Below, piece by piece: positions 23,613-28,909 of a DNA stretch of 64,000 nt. Origin of the DNA: an alpha proteobacterium HIMB59 (lineage in GTDB: Bacteria; Pseudomonadota; Alphaproteobacteria; HIMB59); the NCBI GenBank assembly GCA_000299115.1, contig CP003801.1:1054001-1118000 (forward strand), read 5' to 3'. The notes beneath the pieces are model-generated. The model was not told the DNA's origin. It saw only the letters and a program-made list of their open reading frames with translations, and did no database searches. Within the stretch, counting starts at the first letter, position 1; each line of letters starts with the position of its first letter. The position numbers and the translations under genes were made by a program.

Positions 23613-24779
23613 ATGAATAAACTTTTAAAGACATATAATTTTTCTAATTTTAAAATTACCAAAGGTAATGGAAGTTATCTTTACACCTCTAAAAATGAAA
23701 AATTATTAGACTTTTCTGCGGGCGTTGCGGTTAATTCTCTGGGATATAATCATCCAATCATTAAAAAAAGTTTAAAAGATCAAATCAAAACAGGGATATC
23801 TCATTTATCAGGTTCACAAATTCATGAGTTTAAAATCAAACTTTCAGAACTTCTCTCTAAAGAAAGTAATAAAGGTGATGTCTTTTTCTCCAATTCCGGT
23901 GCAGAAAGCATTGAAGCGGCGCTTAAAGTTGCAAGAAATTATGGAAATAAATATAAAAAAGATGAAATCATAGCGATGACTTCTTCTTTTCATGGAAGAA
24001 CTATTGGCGCTCTTTCTGTGGGGAGTAATAAAAATTATAAATCTCATATTGGTCCTGTACCGGGGAAAGTTAAATTTTGTGAGTTTAATAATTCAAAACA
24101 TTTAAAAAAGCTTATTAATAAAAAAACTGTCGCTATTATCATTGAATTTGTTCAAGGCGATGGAGGTATCAATATATGTACAAAAGAGTTTGCAAAGACT
24201 ATTAAAGAAATATGTAAAAAAAGAAAAATCTTATTAATCGCTGACGAAATCCAAGGTGGAATAGGAAGAACGGGTAAAATATTCGCCTATAAACATTATG
24301 GGGTATCTCCAGACATCATTACATCAGCTAAAGGATTAGGTTCAGGAATACCTATTGGAGCAACAATTGTTAAAAAGGAGATATCAAAGAATATCAATAT
24401 TGGCTTTCATGGTTCTACTTTTGGTGGTGGGATGCTTCAAACAAGAGTTGCCTATAATGTCTTTAAAACAATCAATAAAAATAGTTTTTTAAACAATGTC
24501 AAATCTAAAGGATTCCTATTAGAACAATTATTAAATAAGCTCCATTCCAAACATGATTTAATTAAAGAAATTAGAATTAAAGGTCTAATGGCAGGTATTG
24601 AATTTAAAAATAGTGAACTAGCTTTAAAAATTTACAAAGAAACATCTAATCAGGGCTTAGTGACAACCTTAGTCAAAGGAACAACCATCAGAATTACCCC
24701 TCCTCTAATTATAAAAACCGATGAAATAAAAAGAGGTATTAAAATTATTTCTGACTGTTTAGATAAAACTAAAATTTAA
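23613..24779 (+). CDS. argD: Acetylornithine aminotransferase
   Basis: PLP class-III transaminase of arginine (and possibly lysine) synthesis. The PLP-phosphate-binding NSGAESIEAALKVAR motif is near residue 95, LIADEIQGGIGRTG near residue 210, and the Schiff-base Lys is K240 in SAKGLGSG. The end RITPPLII is conserved. Length 388 fits ArgD. The last 4 bases overlap the stop of convergent argB. The pathway assignment is strengthened by argB and argC next door; it could also serve as succinyl-ornithine transaminase. Confidence 0.9.
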   Translation: MNKLLKTYNFSNFKITKGNGSYLYTSKNEKLLDFSAGVAVNSLGYNHPIIKKSLKDQIKTGISHLSGSQIHEFKIKLSELLSKESNKGDVFFSNSGAESIEAALKVARNYGNKYKKDEIIAMTSSFHGRTIGALSVGSNKNYKSHIGPVPGKVKFCEFNNSKHLKKLINKKTVAIIIEFVQGDGGINICTKEFAKTIKEICKKRKILLIADEIQGGIGRTGKIFAYKHYGVSPDIITSAKGLGSGIPIGATIVKKEISKNINIGFHGSTFGGGMLQTRVAYNVFKTINKNSFLNNVKSKGFLLEQLLNKLHSKHDLIKEIRIKGLMAGIEFKNSELALKIYKETSNQGLVTTLVKGTTIRITPPLIIKTDEIKRGIKIISDCLDKTKI

Positions 24780-25627
24780 TAATCTAAAGACTGTTTTTGA
24801 AAAACTGTACCAATACCCTCTTCTGTTTCTAGTTCAGTCAATAGAGCATTTTTAATTTCACCACTTATAATATGTATTTTTTGAACTCCTTGGTTAAGAG
24901 CTTTTAAAGAATTTTCTACTTTCACAACCATTCCATCAGAAATGATTTTTTCATCAAAAAGTTTTTTTGCCACATTTTCGTCAACAGAAGAAATACGTTC
25001 ACCATTTAAATCTTTTATATAAGGGACATCAGAAATAAAAATTAACTTACTAGCTGATAAATTCACGGCCAATTCAGTAGCGATGGTATCAGCATTCACA
25101 TTTAACACATCGGCTGTATTTTTATCTAAAACAAGACTAGGCATAATAATCATATCGTGTTCTTTAAATAATTTTTGTATTTCTAATGCATCCACTGATA
25201 CAACGTCCCCTACTTGACCAAAATCAATTCCATCAACAACATCTCTTTTTTTGGCCGCGATAAAGTCTTTTTTAGAAATAGGAATAGGAAAATTTCTAAT
25301 ATTATAACGAGAACTGAGGCTGAAAATATCGATTAAAATTTGACCTGAAATTTTCTTTGCTGCTTCGATATCATCTTGAGAGGTAATTCTTCGACCATTA
25401 ACCTTTTTAGGCTCAATTTGATGAACGTTTTTCATGTAATGATCTAATTGTCTGCCAAAACCAAAAACAAGCACGACTTTTAGCTTTGATATTGTTGATA
25501 AAAGCTCTTTTATATCCCCTATAACATTTTCGATACTTTGTTGATTATCACAAATTTTACCACTGACTTTGACCACTAAAGTCGAGTTTTGAAGAATAGA
25601 TTGATAAAAAGATTGAGTTTTACTCAT
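24776..25627 (-). CDS. argB: N-acetylglutamate kinase-like amino-acid kinase, divergent
   Basis: Amino-acid kinase fold catalysing the second step of arginine synthesis. Supporting segments are NVNADTIATELA near residue 177, the KLIFISDVPYIKD stretch, SDGMVVKVENSLKAL and TELETEEGIGTVF at the end. Two glycine-rich loops deviate from classic ArgB: the usual KxGG is K20-V-S-G-K, and the GGG loop is G56-F-G58. This resembles the more divergent kinases seen in Xanthomonas-type enzymes, but there is no fused acetyltransferase domain (283 residues). It overlaps argC by 4 bases (ATGA) and faces argD. Confidence 0.85.
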   Translation of the reverse strand: MSKTQSFYQSILQNSTLVVKVSGKICDNQQSIENVIGDIKELLSTISKLKVVLVFGFGRQLDHYMKNVHQIEPKKVNGRRITSQDDIEAAKKISGQILIDIFSLSSRYNIRNFPIPISKKDFIAAKKRDVVDGIDFGQVGDVVSVDALEIQKLFKEHDMIIMPSLVLDKNTADVLNVNADTIATELAVNLSASKLIFISDVPYIKDLNGERISSVDENVAKKLFDEKIISDGMVVKVENSLKALNQGVQKIHIISGEIKNALLTELETEEGIGTVFQKQSLDY

Positions 25628-26619
25628 AGATATAAAGGTAAAATTTCTTTTAAACCCAATGACTGGTCTTCAGAAAACATTAGGTTCATACACTCAACTG
25701 CATTACCAGAAGCGCCTTTAATAAGATTATCAATACAAGTCTCTACTACAAAATTTTGATTATCCTTAACGGAAATTGAAATGTCACAGTAATTAGATCC
25801 CACAACATTGGATAACTTGTTTTGAGATTGAACTCTTACAAAAGGCATATTGGAATATTTATTTTTTAATAATTCATTTAACTTATCTGCATTAATATTT
25901 TCTTTGGATTGAATATGAGCCGTTACATAAATACCTCTCGTAAAAGGTCCAGACAATGGAACAAAAGATAATTTATCTCCTAAAGATGGAAAAGATTGAT
26001 AAATCTCAGCTAAATGTCTGTGTTGGTTCACATTATAAGAAAAAACATCTTTGGAACGAATAGAATGATGGTTCTTAGAAGTTGGAGCCTTACCTCCTCC
26101 ACTAGAGCCAGTAATGGCAGTTATAGAAATATTATTAATGAGCGACTCAAAAGGCAGAATAGCTAATTGAGAAGCTAAAGCAAAACAACCAGGATTTGCA
26201 ACGTTTTCAGATTTTTTAATATCATCTAATTTTGACTCAATGAATCCATAAGTAAAATTATTTTGTAAATTAGCATCAAATGAGGATTTATAATATTTCT
26301 CATAGGATTGAGCATCACTTATTCTATAATCGGAACTCAAATCAATAATTTTAACCTTTCCTATCAATTCATTAACATATTCCTCTGCAGAACCATGTGG
26401 TAAAGCTAAAAAAACACAATCTAAATTATGAAAATCACCTAGATTAGTTGTTTGAAGTTCAGACAAGTTCAAAGATGAAAGATGAGTAAACTCATCATCA
26501 ATATCATTTTCTCTTTTTAAAATCTTTTGAACGGATACCTTCGGATGAATAGAAAGAATTCTTAATAATTCTAGCCCTAAAAAACCATTAGCTCCAATAA
26601 TCCCAACTTTAATCATCAC
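25624..26619 (-). CDS. argC: N-acetyl-gamma-glutamyl-phosphate reductase
   Basis: NADPH-dependent reductase, third step of arginine synthesis. The N-terminal GIIGANGFLGLELLRIL dinucleotide-binding motif, DLSSDYRI near residue 94, the catalytic Cys in NPGCFALA near residue 144, and the GSSGGGKAPTSKNH stretch are typical. Length 331 fits the common bacterial type. It lies between argB and the P-loop gene, overlapping the former by 4 bases and the latter by 11, so the three genes are a tight operon. Confidence 0.92.
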   Translation of the reverse strand: MMIKVGIIGANGFLGLELLRILSIHPKVSVQKILKRENDIDDEFTHLSSLNLSELQTTNLGDFHNLDCVFLALPHGSAEEYVNELIGKVKIIDLSSDYRISDAQSYEKYYKSSFDANLQNNFTYGFIESKLDDIKKSENVANPGCFALASQLAILPFESLINNISITAITGSSGGGKAPTSKNHHSIRSKDVFSYNVNQHRHLAEIYQSFPSLGDKLSFVPLSGPFTRGIYVTAHIQSKENINADKLNELLKNKYSNMPFVRVQSQNKLSNVVGSNYCDISISVKDNQNFVVETCIDNLIKGASGNAVECMNLMFSEDQSLGLKEILPLYL

Positions 26620-27652
26620 TAATCCTATTGATCATTTTAGCAAATACATTGACATGATTGGCAGAATTATAAATATTTAAAAAGTCTAAATTTTTAAACT
26701 TAAATTTACTAATAGACTGATTGAAAGCAGATACATTATTAGTAACAGGACCACTAATAATTAGTAGCTTTTCCTCTAGTCCATTTTGTTCAAGATTTTC
26801 AATTATATTGACTGCACCAGAAATATCATAAGCACAAATAACAATCACTTTAATGAGTTTGGTAATATCTTTATTTTGAATAATTTCTTTTGTTCCATAG
26901 TCACCATGATAACCATCACCTAATTCCATCAGAACTACATCGGCATCTTTACTCACATGATCTATAACTGATTTAGAGCATTCTTGAATGGTGTCTTTAT
27001 CATTCATACAAGTGCTAGGAAGTCCGTAATCAACAAAATCAGATGTTAAGTTGGCACCATTATCTTCATAAGAATAAAGATCCTTTTGAGATGCGGTTCC
27101 AGCTAATTTGCAGGCATTAATTTTTGTAAAGTATTTACTCAGAGTTTTTATAATAAAAGAAGAAACGGTAGTTTTTCCTGAGTCGATACCAGTTCCTATT
27201 ACAGCGATGGATGAGACGTTGTTTGATAAAGGAGATTTTTTTACTTTAGCTAAATCTTTAAGGTTTAATTGTTTGTCATCTCTAACAATGGAACCTACAA
27301 CTTCACATTCTGTTGCCGGTCCTAAAAGAATATTAAAATCTTTACAATTTCCAATAACACCACCTAGGTTTAAAATATGAATTTTATCATGTTTGTTTAA
27401 TTCATCAGGAACAGAGCCAGTCATACCTGAAGATGCTATTCGATTACCTAAAGCCCCAAGAATGATATCACCCTCTGTTAATTCGGTAATTCTTCCTGAT
27501 ATTAATTCTAATTTATTATAATTGGGATTAACCGATATTACTTTAACCGCAATCAACTGCCCTTCTTGAGCATTGATTTTATCATCAAGTTCTAAGTCTT
27601 CAGATATTTGAAGATTTTTAAGAACAGACCCAATTTTCTTTGTATTAATCAT
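26609..27652 (-). CDS. Uncharacterised P-loop protein coupled to argC-argB
   Basis: I do not recognise this 347-residue protein. Residues about 25-135 look like an all-beta module (GQLIAVKVISV, GRITELTEGD, IHILNLGGVIG). Residues 153-162 form a Walker A loop, GTGIDSGKTT, followed by a cofactor- or acyl-transfer-like P-loop domain with ACKLAGTAS near residue 181, DFVDYGLPST near residue 204 and VVLMELGDGYHGDYG near residue 240. The layout distantly recalls DUF1611/DgcN or dethiobiotin-synthetase-like proteins, but I cannot confirm homology. It overlaps argC by 11 bases and is first in the operon, so a role in arginine synthesis or its supply is an inference from context. Confidence 0.75.
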   Translation of the reverse strand: MINTKKIGSVLKNLQISEDLELDDKINAQEGQLIAVKVISVNPNYNKLELISGRITELTEGDIILGALGNRIASSGMTGSVPDELNKHDKIHILNLGGVIGNCKDFNILLGPATECEVVGSIVRDDKQLNLKDLAKVKKSPLSNNVSSIAVIGTGIDSGKTTVSSFIIKTLSKYFTKINACKLAGTASQKDLYSYEDNGANLTSDFVDYGLPSTCMNDKDTIQECSKSVIDHVSKDADVVLMELGDGYHGDYGTKEIIQNKDITKLIKVIVICAYDISGAVNIIENLEQNGLEEKLLIISGPVTNNVSAFNQSISKFKFKNLDFLNIYNSANHVNVFAKMINRISDD

Positions 27653-27721: not shown

Positions 27722-28909
27722 CTATTTTAGTAGATTTCTTATATTTTTGGCTGCTTGTCTAATTCTTTGTTCGTTTTCTACCAGTCCTATTCGAACAAAT
27801 CCTTCTCCATATTCACCAAATGCAACTCCAGGAGAAACCGCAACATTTGCTTTAGTCATTAAATCTCGGGCAAATTTTAAAGATCCTTTGTTTTGGTACT
27901 TTTTGGGTATCGGTGCCCAAGCAAACATACTCGCTTGTGGAATAGGTATTTCCCATCCTGCTCTAGCCATAGACTCAATCAAAACGTCTCGACGACTTTG
28001 ATAGATGGAACGAATTTCTGAAACACATTTTTGAGATCCGTTTAAAGCTGTAGCTGCTGCTACTTGAACGGGTGTAAAAGCACCATAATCTAAATATGAT
28101 TTAATTTTTGTTAAAGCAGCAATCAATTTAGGATTTCCGACAGCATAACCTATTCTCCAGCCGGCCATTGCATAGGTTTTCGACATTGAGGTAAACTCCA
28201 CTGCTATATTTTTTGCCTTAGGAACTTGCAAAATAGAAGGTGGTGGGGATTTATCATAATAAATTTCTGCATAAGCTAGATCAGATAAAACATAGACTTG
28301 ATGCTTGAGAGCAATCTTCACTACTTCTTTATAAAAGTTTAAATCGACAACTTGAGCAGTTGGATTTGAGGGAAAAGAAACAATCAATGCAACTGGTATA
28401 GGTGTGCTATGACGTATAGAGCGATCTAATCTTTCTAAATACACATCGGGATCAAATTTACCTTCAAACATCGTCGGTAAATGTCTAAGAGAAGCGCCAG
28501 CAATAATAAATCCATAAGGATGAATTGGGTATGATGGATTAGGTGAAATAATAATATCTCCTGGAGAAGAAATCGCTTGAGCTAAATTTGCAAGTCCCTC
28601 TTTCGAACCTAAGGTAACAATAACTTCATTTTCAGGATTAACTTTAACTCCAAATCTTCTAGCGTAATAATTTGCCTGAGCCTTTCTTAAACCCAGAATA
28701 CCTTTACTTACTGAATATCTTCCAACTCCTGGTTTATCGACAACTTCTTTTAATTTATCTCGAATATGTTTAGGTGTTGGCATATCGGGATTACCCATCC
28801 CAAAATCAATAATATCATTTCCTTTTTTTCTCAGTTTTGCTTTTAGTTGATTAATTTCTGCAAAAACATAGTTGGGTAATAAATTTATTCTAGAAAATTC
28901 AGATTTCAT
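27722..28909 (-). CDS. AlaC-like class I aminotransferase
   Basis: PLP-dependent aminotransferase of the AlaC/LL-diaminopimelate aminotransferase-like group. The GMGNPDMPTP opening, PNPSYPIHPYGF near residue 125, SFPSNPTAQVV near residue 175 and the PLP-Lys region SMSKTYAMAGWRIG near residue 243 are all present. Length 395 is usual. AlaC makes alanine from pyruvate and glutamate; the precise substrate is not certain. It lies 69 bases upstream of the P-loop/argC/argB operon on the same strand. Confidence 0.87.
   Translation of the reverse strand: MKSEFSRINLLPNYVFAEINQLKAKLRKKGNDIIDFGMGNPDMPTPKHIRDKLKEVVDKPGVGRYSVSKGILGLRKAQANYYARRFGVKVNPENEVIVTLGSKEGLANLAQAISSPGDIIISPNPSYPIHPYGFIIAGASLRHLPTMFEGKFDPDVYLERLDRSIRHSTPIPVALIVSFPSNPTAQVVDLNFYKEVVKIALKHQVYVLSDLAYAEIYYDKSPPPSILQVPKAKNIAVEFTSMSKTYAMAGWRIGYAVGNPKLIAALTKIKSYLDYGAFTPVQVAAATALNGSQKCVSEIRSIYQSRRDVLIESMARAGWEIPIPQASMFAWAPIPKKYQNKGSLKFARDLMTKANVAVSPGVAFGEYGEGFVRIGLVENEQRIRQAAKNIRNLLK

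Follow-up and report, generated by a model that had tools for sequence, protein, structure and literature searches.

A dethiobiotin synthetase-like P-loop protein leading arginine genes in the HIMB59 lineage is a predicted N-acylglutamate synthase

The stretch of DNA analyzed here (the window, 64,000 nucleotides) belongs to a complete genome of 1,410,127 bases (1.41 Mb) from the order of strain HIMB59. It encodes a protein of 347 aa, hereafter P (26609..27652, minus strand, ATG start), that we predict to be an N-acylglutamate synthase or synthetase. Downstream on the same strand are argC, encoding N-acetyl-gamma-glutamyl-phosphate reductase (25624..26619), and a gene for an ArgB-like amino acid kinase of 283 aa, identified by NCBIfam matches and lacking a GNAT domain (24776..25627). 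On the plus strand, argD (23613..24779), for a transaminase of the acetylornithine/succinylornithine type, converges on argB with a 4-base overlap. A class I/II aminotransferase of the LL-diaminopimelate aminotransferase/alanine transaminase type is encoded on the minus strand, 69 bases upstream of P (27722..28909). By its TIGR01850 score (297.5 bits against a cut-off of 233.6), ArgC is of the ordinary N-acetyl type. The first-pass annotation of the window gave an 11-base overlap between P and argC, which is correct for the called GTG start of argC at 26619. However, almost all relatives have an overlap of 8 bases, matching an ATG of the window at 26616; this ATG is thus the likely start, and the true overlap is probably 8 bases. 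The 4-base overlap of argC with argB (25624-25627) is as described there.

The best NCBIfam match of the ArgB-like kinase is to the kinase-like domain of ArgA (142.9 bits), and its score against the ArgB model TIGR00761 (122.8 bits) falls below the cut-off of 151.3. The GGG motif reads GFG, and the kinase positions K20, N178, D180 and K236 look kept. Fusion of a GNAT domain to ArgB is known as the Xanthomonas or Maricaulis type. Such a fusion was ruled out here as the first-step enzyme, given the 283 aa length of the protein and the lack of any GNAT match. An ordinary OTC is encoded at L133 7537-8415, which implies that deacylation precedes carbamoylation.

Intact homologues of P occur in about 40 genomes at 62-95% identity, and internal stop codons are absent from all but one frameshift-ridden assembly. 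In that metagenome-assembled genome (G116, L033 3357-8446), P, argC, argB and argD are all frameshifted, most likely through sequencing error of the assembly. Given the intact homologues and a conserved gene order, the P coding sequence is real and not a chance reading frame.

The sequence and a structural model divide P into a beta-rich N-terminal part (approximately residues 1-140) and a P-loop domain resembling dethiobiotin synthetase, BioD (approximately residues 145-347). The Walker A loop GTGIDSGKTT is read at residues 153-162 (27167..27196, minus strand), as in the first-pass annotation, and its lysine, K160, is invariant in 17 of 17 aligned members. The AlphaFold2 model, built from 39 close relatives (mean pLDDT 76, pTM 0.75), has an alpha/beta P-loop domain preceded by a module made mostly of strands, as had been read from the sequence, with parts of residues 72-104 at pLDDT below 50. 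The earlier view that this layout fits no recognized arginine enzyme holds, in that no Pfam or NCBIfam model scores above its cut-off against P. NCBIfam gave no match, the score against Pfam AAA_26 (PF13500) is 21.6 bits (under the cut-off of 27), P alone as query retrieved nothing reliable from the PDB sequences and a PHROGs search gave no useful match.

The structure and profile comparisons that had been proposed against the dethiobiotin synthetase fold did find it. The best PDB fold for the model in Foldseek is dethiobiotin synthetase 3of5 (E=5.5e-6, TM by target 0.57), followed by other P-loop NTPases (e.g., HypB and SRP-type GTPases), and a profile of 17 members of the P family matched BioD 3fgn (E=5e-4). 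Alignment of P with E. coli BioD by hhalign spans 101 columns and pairs BioD K15, K37, D54 and E115 (mature protein numbering, counted by hand), which we take to be the catalytic residues, with K160, K182, D191 and E243 of P. All four are invariant in the 17-member family alignment. The hhalign probabilities are low (19%) because the alignments are shallow. The N-terminal part contributes two more invariant residues, R54 and R71, and the two halves of P thus evolve as one enzyme. Modeled fold and aligned active-site residues thus both place dethiobiotin synthetase as the closest match of P. The two proteins share the P-loop fold, the profile matches and the four active-site equivalents, whereas P adds an N-terminal beta domain of about 140 aa, is encoded in arginine operons rather than in a biotin-gene context, scores below the PF13500 cut-off and lacks an NCBIfam match.

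A distant relationship of P to the DUF1611/DgcN proteins had been suggested from the sequence of the window. DgcN is a DUF1611 D-glutamate N-acetyltransferase (Yu et al. 2023, ISME J 17:537, as cited in PMC12363236), classified as EC 2.3.1.312 (PMC11747546). P has no match to PF07755 at E values up to 1; one distant orthologue (L109) scores 20.9 bits, under the cut-off of 25. We compared P with eight plasmid-borne DgcN/DUF1611 proteins, several of them encoded beside dgcA; these were retrieved with a consensus sequence as bait, and the comparison itself used the real annotated proteins. The hhalign match of P to the DgcN profile is confined to 37 columns around the P-loop (probability 19%), and alignment A3 against A6 gave a probability of 0.4%. 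DgcN is like P in having an N-terminal module joined to a P-loop domain, in its similar length, in the weak PF07755 signal of one P orthologue and in having glutamate as substrate, as is predicted for P. In contrast, the N-terminal domains are not alignable, and DgcN has TGQTG where P (KLxGT) and BioD have a conserved lysine (K37). Unlike DgcN, which is often encoded beside dgcA, P has no dgcA racemase gene next to it; its neighbors are argC, argB, an aminotransferase or an M20 hydrolase. Membership in DUF1611/DgcN was thus rejected as unproven by Pfam, BLAST and the eight-protein profile. P may work like DgcN, acylating glutamate, without demonstrated membership of the family. With the exception of the distantly similar DgcN, we know of no enzyme with the fold of P that acylates glutamate.

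The association of P with arginine genes extends well beyond the window. In the family of the window genome (f1), the order aminotransferase-P-argC-argB with a convergent argD is conserved wherever the contig is long enough. In a distantly related alphaproteobacterial order, which includes family f137 (the second order), all 30 fetched loci have argC immediately downstream of P; the adjacency to the aminotransferase, conserved in f1, was not seen there. The two second-order loci that were fully read (L109 and L110) carry contiguous P-argC-argB-argD-argF. L109 also has argG and argH downstream, with other genes in between, leaving only step 1 and the deacylation (step 5) of arginine synthesis without an enzyme. 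Three loci of family f178 have the order argG-argH-P-argC-argB. An M20 hydrolase is the upstream neighbor of P in 12 of the 30 second-order loci, and the two neighbors tested are of the TIGR01891 type. The role of these hydrolases is not certain, as the M20 genes of L109 (10839-12032) and L110 also adjoin peptide-transporter genes. The neighborhood survey proposed earlier thus found P upstream of argC in two orders, and more distant paralogs outside arginine clusters.

A profile of P was run over 385 genomes of the class. Close relatives were confined to f1 and the distant family f137, and the weaker matches are paralogs at 23-29% identity. Within the HIMB59 order, 42 of the 52 f1 genomes have P, and the 110 genomes of f2, its sister family, have none. 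The pattern for ArgJ (PF01960) is the reverse, with none in the 52 f1 genomes and 82 in the 110 of f2; this contrast represents one evolutionary event rather than 162 independent ones. A close form of P occurs in 38 of 142 second-order genomes, and the single genome of the 142 with ArgJ lacks P. The second order provides a second event, one that is not fully independent because P may have moved between the two orders. ArgJ was found in none of the 80 P-bearing genomes, which include HIMB59 itself by PF01960 search; G477 and G396 likewise have arg-linked P and no ArgJ. Genomes with only non-arg paralogs of P encode ArgJ in 14 of 14 cases. These genome-wide checks combined profile searches with sampled stretches. 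The first-pass annotation had named, as the outcome that would count against its proposal, an argJ or argA elsewhere in the genome together with a lack of arg linkage in relatives; what we found is the opposite, with arg linkage in two orders and no ArgJ alongside P.

The f1 genomes without P are mostly incomplete. G125 was dismissed as a counter-example, as its contig ends inside argB (an assembly break). The sampled stretches of G139 did not contain the P region. A large part of the second order has neither P nor ArgJ, and one possible reason is auxotrophy. Such a state is reported for Micavibrio aeruginosavorus (PMC3189940), a predator that may or may not belong to the second order.

Most paralogs of P outside arginine clusters adjoin ABC transporter genes, some together with hydrolases. 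Examples are L112, L113, L114, L120, L121, L122, L124 and L233, some of which also carry an alpha/beta hydrolase. In a phylogenetic tree the arg-linked P proteins group together (support 91/64, with long-branch warnings), and the paralogs nearest to them, L118 and L234, each have an M20 hydrolase nearby. At L118 (9330-11704) the paralog overlaps, by 4 bases, the gene for a glutamate carboxypeptidase-type M20 hydrolase. L234 (2724-11412) is a cluster on a Priestia megaterium plasmid that encodes the paralog, an OTC-like protein, two ATP-grasp proteins, halves of a TPP-dependent enzyme, a TIGR01891 M20 hydrolase and a PEP mutase family protein; from its gene content it looks like a phosphonate-type biosynthetic cluster. 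The M20 genes beside P in 12 of 30 loci and beside both nearest paralogs suggest a recurrent pairing in which one enzyme protects an amine and the other deprotects it.

We predict that P is a previously unrecognized N-acylglutamate synthase or synthetase that replaces ArgJ and ArgA, a reading that we consider probable from gene context and sequence, as P leads the arginine genes just where the usual glutamate-acylating enzymes are absent. The assignment to this functional class draws on two findings, the arg-operon linkage and the absence of ArgJ. The earlier proposal that P supplies the N-acylglutamate of the pathway thus gains from the linkage in two orders and the mutual exclusion with ArgJ, and loses its basis in the DUF1611/DgcN family. 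P would place an N-acyl group on L-glutamate, the committing step, and so feed ArgB, ArgC and ArgD. The P-loop domain would bind a nucleotide, K182, D191 and E243 may help to activate a carboxyl donor, which the amine of glutamate would then attack, and the family-specific N-terminal domain, with R54 and R71, may help to bind substrate. The donor could be acetyl-CoA or a free acid used together with ATP, and the acyl group either acetyl or succinyl. That P is a BioD-like P-loop synthetase, in which ATP activates a free acid that is then ligated to glutamate, is a tentative assignment and somewhat doubtful. P has no match to PF01960, to GNAT models or to any NCBIfam model, and so differs in sequence model from ArgJ and from the ArgA and GNAT N-acetylglutamate synthases, whose step P is predicted to share. 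The N-acylglutamate synthases of the Cabys_1732/BT3761 type (PMC7311316) also act at the step predicted for P; the comparison of P with known enzymes of this step covered the PF01960, GNAT and NCBIfam models. We found no literature report on P or on arginine synthesis in HIMB59.

The route of deacylation bears on whether P has a single role. In the second order, N-acylornithine is probably deacylated by the neighboring M20 amidohydrolase. A step-5 enzyme was not found in f1, where DapE is the only M20 protein in most HIMB59-lineage genomes (in L107, 4554-6549, dapE adjoins dapD); deacylation there could be carried out by another enzyme, by DapE or by P itself. HIMB59 has a second M20 protein (L135 6395-7603), an unlikely arginine deacylase in that it is of the hydantoinase/carbamoylase type, lies beside a peptide transporter and is absent in most relatives. 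With steps 1 and 5 thus both lacking an enzyme in the HIMB59 lineage, which has no ArgJ and mostly DapE as its sole M20, and with no P in any tested genome of the two orders that has ArgJ, P might be an ArgJ-like bifunctional transferase that passes the acyl group of N-acylornithine on to glutamate, besides or instead of making new N-acylglutamate. We regard this as unlikely: the neighboring M20 of the second order can perform step 5, and the Walker A loop and intact BioD-like active site favor chemistry with a nucleotide or CoA over a ping-pong transfer.

The first step could instead be performed by a short GNAT encoded elsewhere, with P an accessory of the operon (a chaperone, a regulator or an enzyme of a side reaction). 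Short N-acetylglutamate synthases (S-NAGS) are known (PMC3827942), and a second small GNAT of about 142 aa, besides RimI, was detected with PF00583, the model used for this search, in most f1 genomes, including ones in which P was not found. An unassigned GNAT of approximately 142-149 aa (L128 1456-1905) is present in most of the genus. The genome check for ArgJ or a GNAT-type NAGS therefore turned up no ArgJ, but did turn up this 142-aa GNAT, which matches no NAGS model, has only weak RimI and AAC(6') matches and lies beside cysE rather than arginine genes. This explanation also leaves unaccounted for the tracking of ArgJ-less arginine operons by P in two orders, and we find it quite improbable. 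Still further from what we expect is that P makes some other modified glutamate by BioD-type chemistry (e.g., ATP-driven N-carboxylation or carbamoylation) and that the pathway uses this protected intermediate. The invariant equivalents of BioD K15, K37, D54 and E115 and the hydantoinase/carbamoylase-type M20 of HIMB59 would suit such a route, which is nevertheless very improbable given that this M20 is not conserved in the lineage, that most genomes have one M20 and that ArgC is of the ordinary N-acetyl type.

The entry step of arginine synthesis is performed by several unrelated enzymes, and annotation tends to report a gap in genomes without a known one. Should P turn out to fill this step, members of the HIMB59 lineage, which live in the ocean, and many members of the second order may be arginine prototrophs that have been misread. 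A P that uses ATP and a free acid would open a new class of N-acylglutamate synthetase, distinct from the acyl-CoA- or acylornithine-dependent enzymes known for step 1. The family of BioD-like P-loop proteins to which P belongs would gain its first predicted substrate; under the ATP-dependent reading, the paralogs with M20 partners would form a wider amine-protecting family, one member of which is encoded in a plasmid cluster with phosphonate-type genes.
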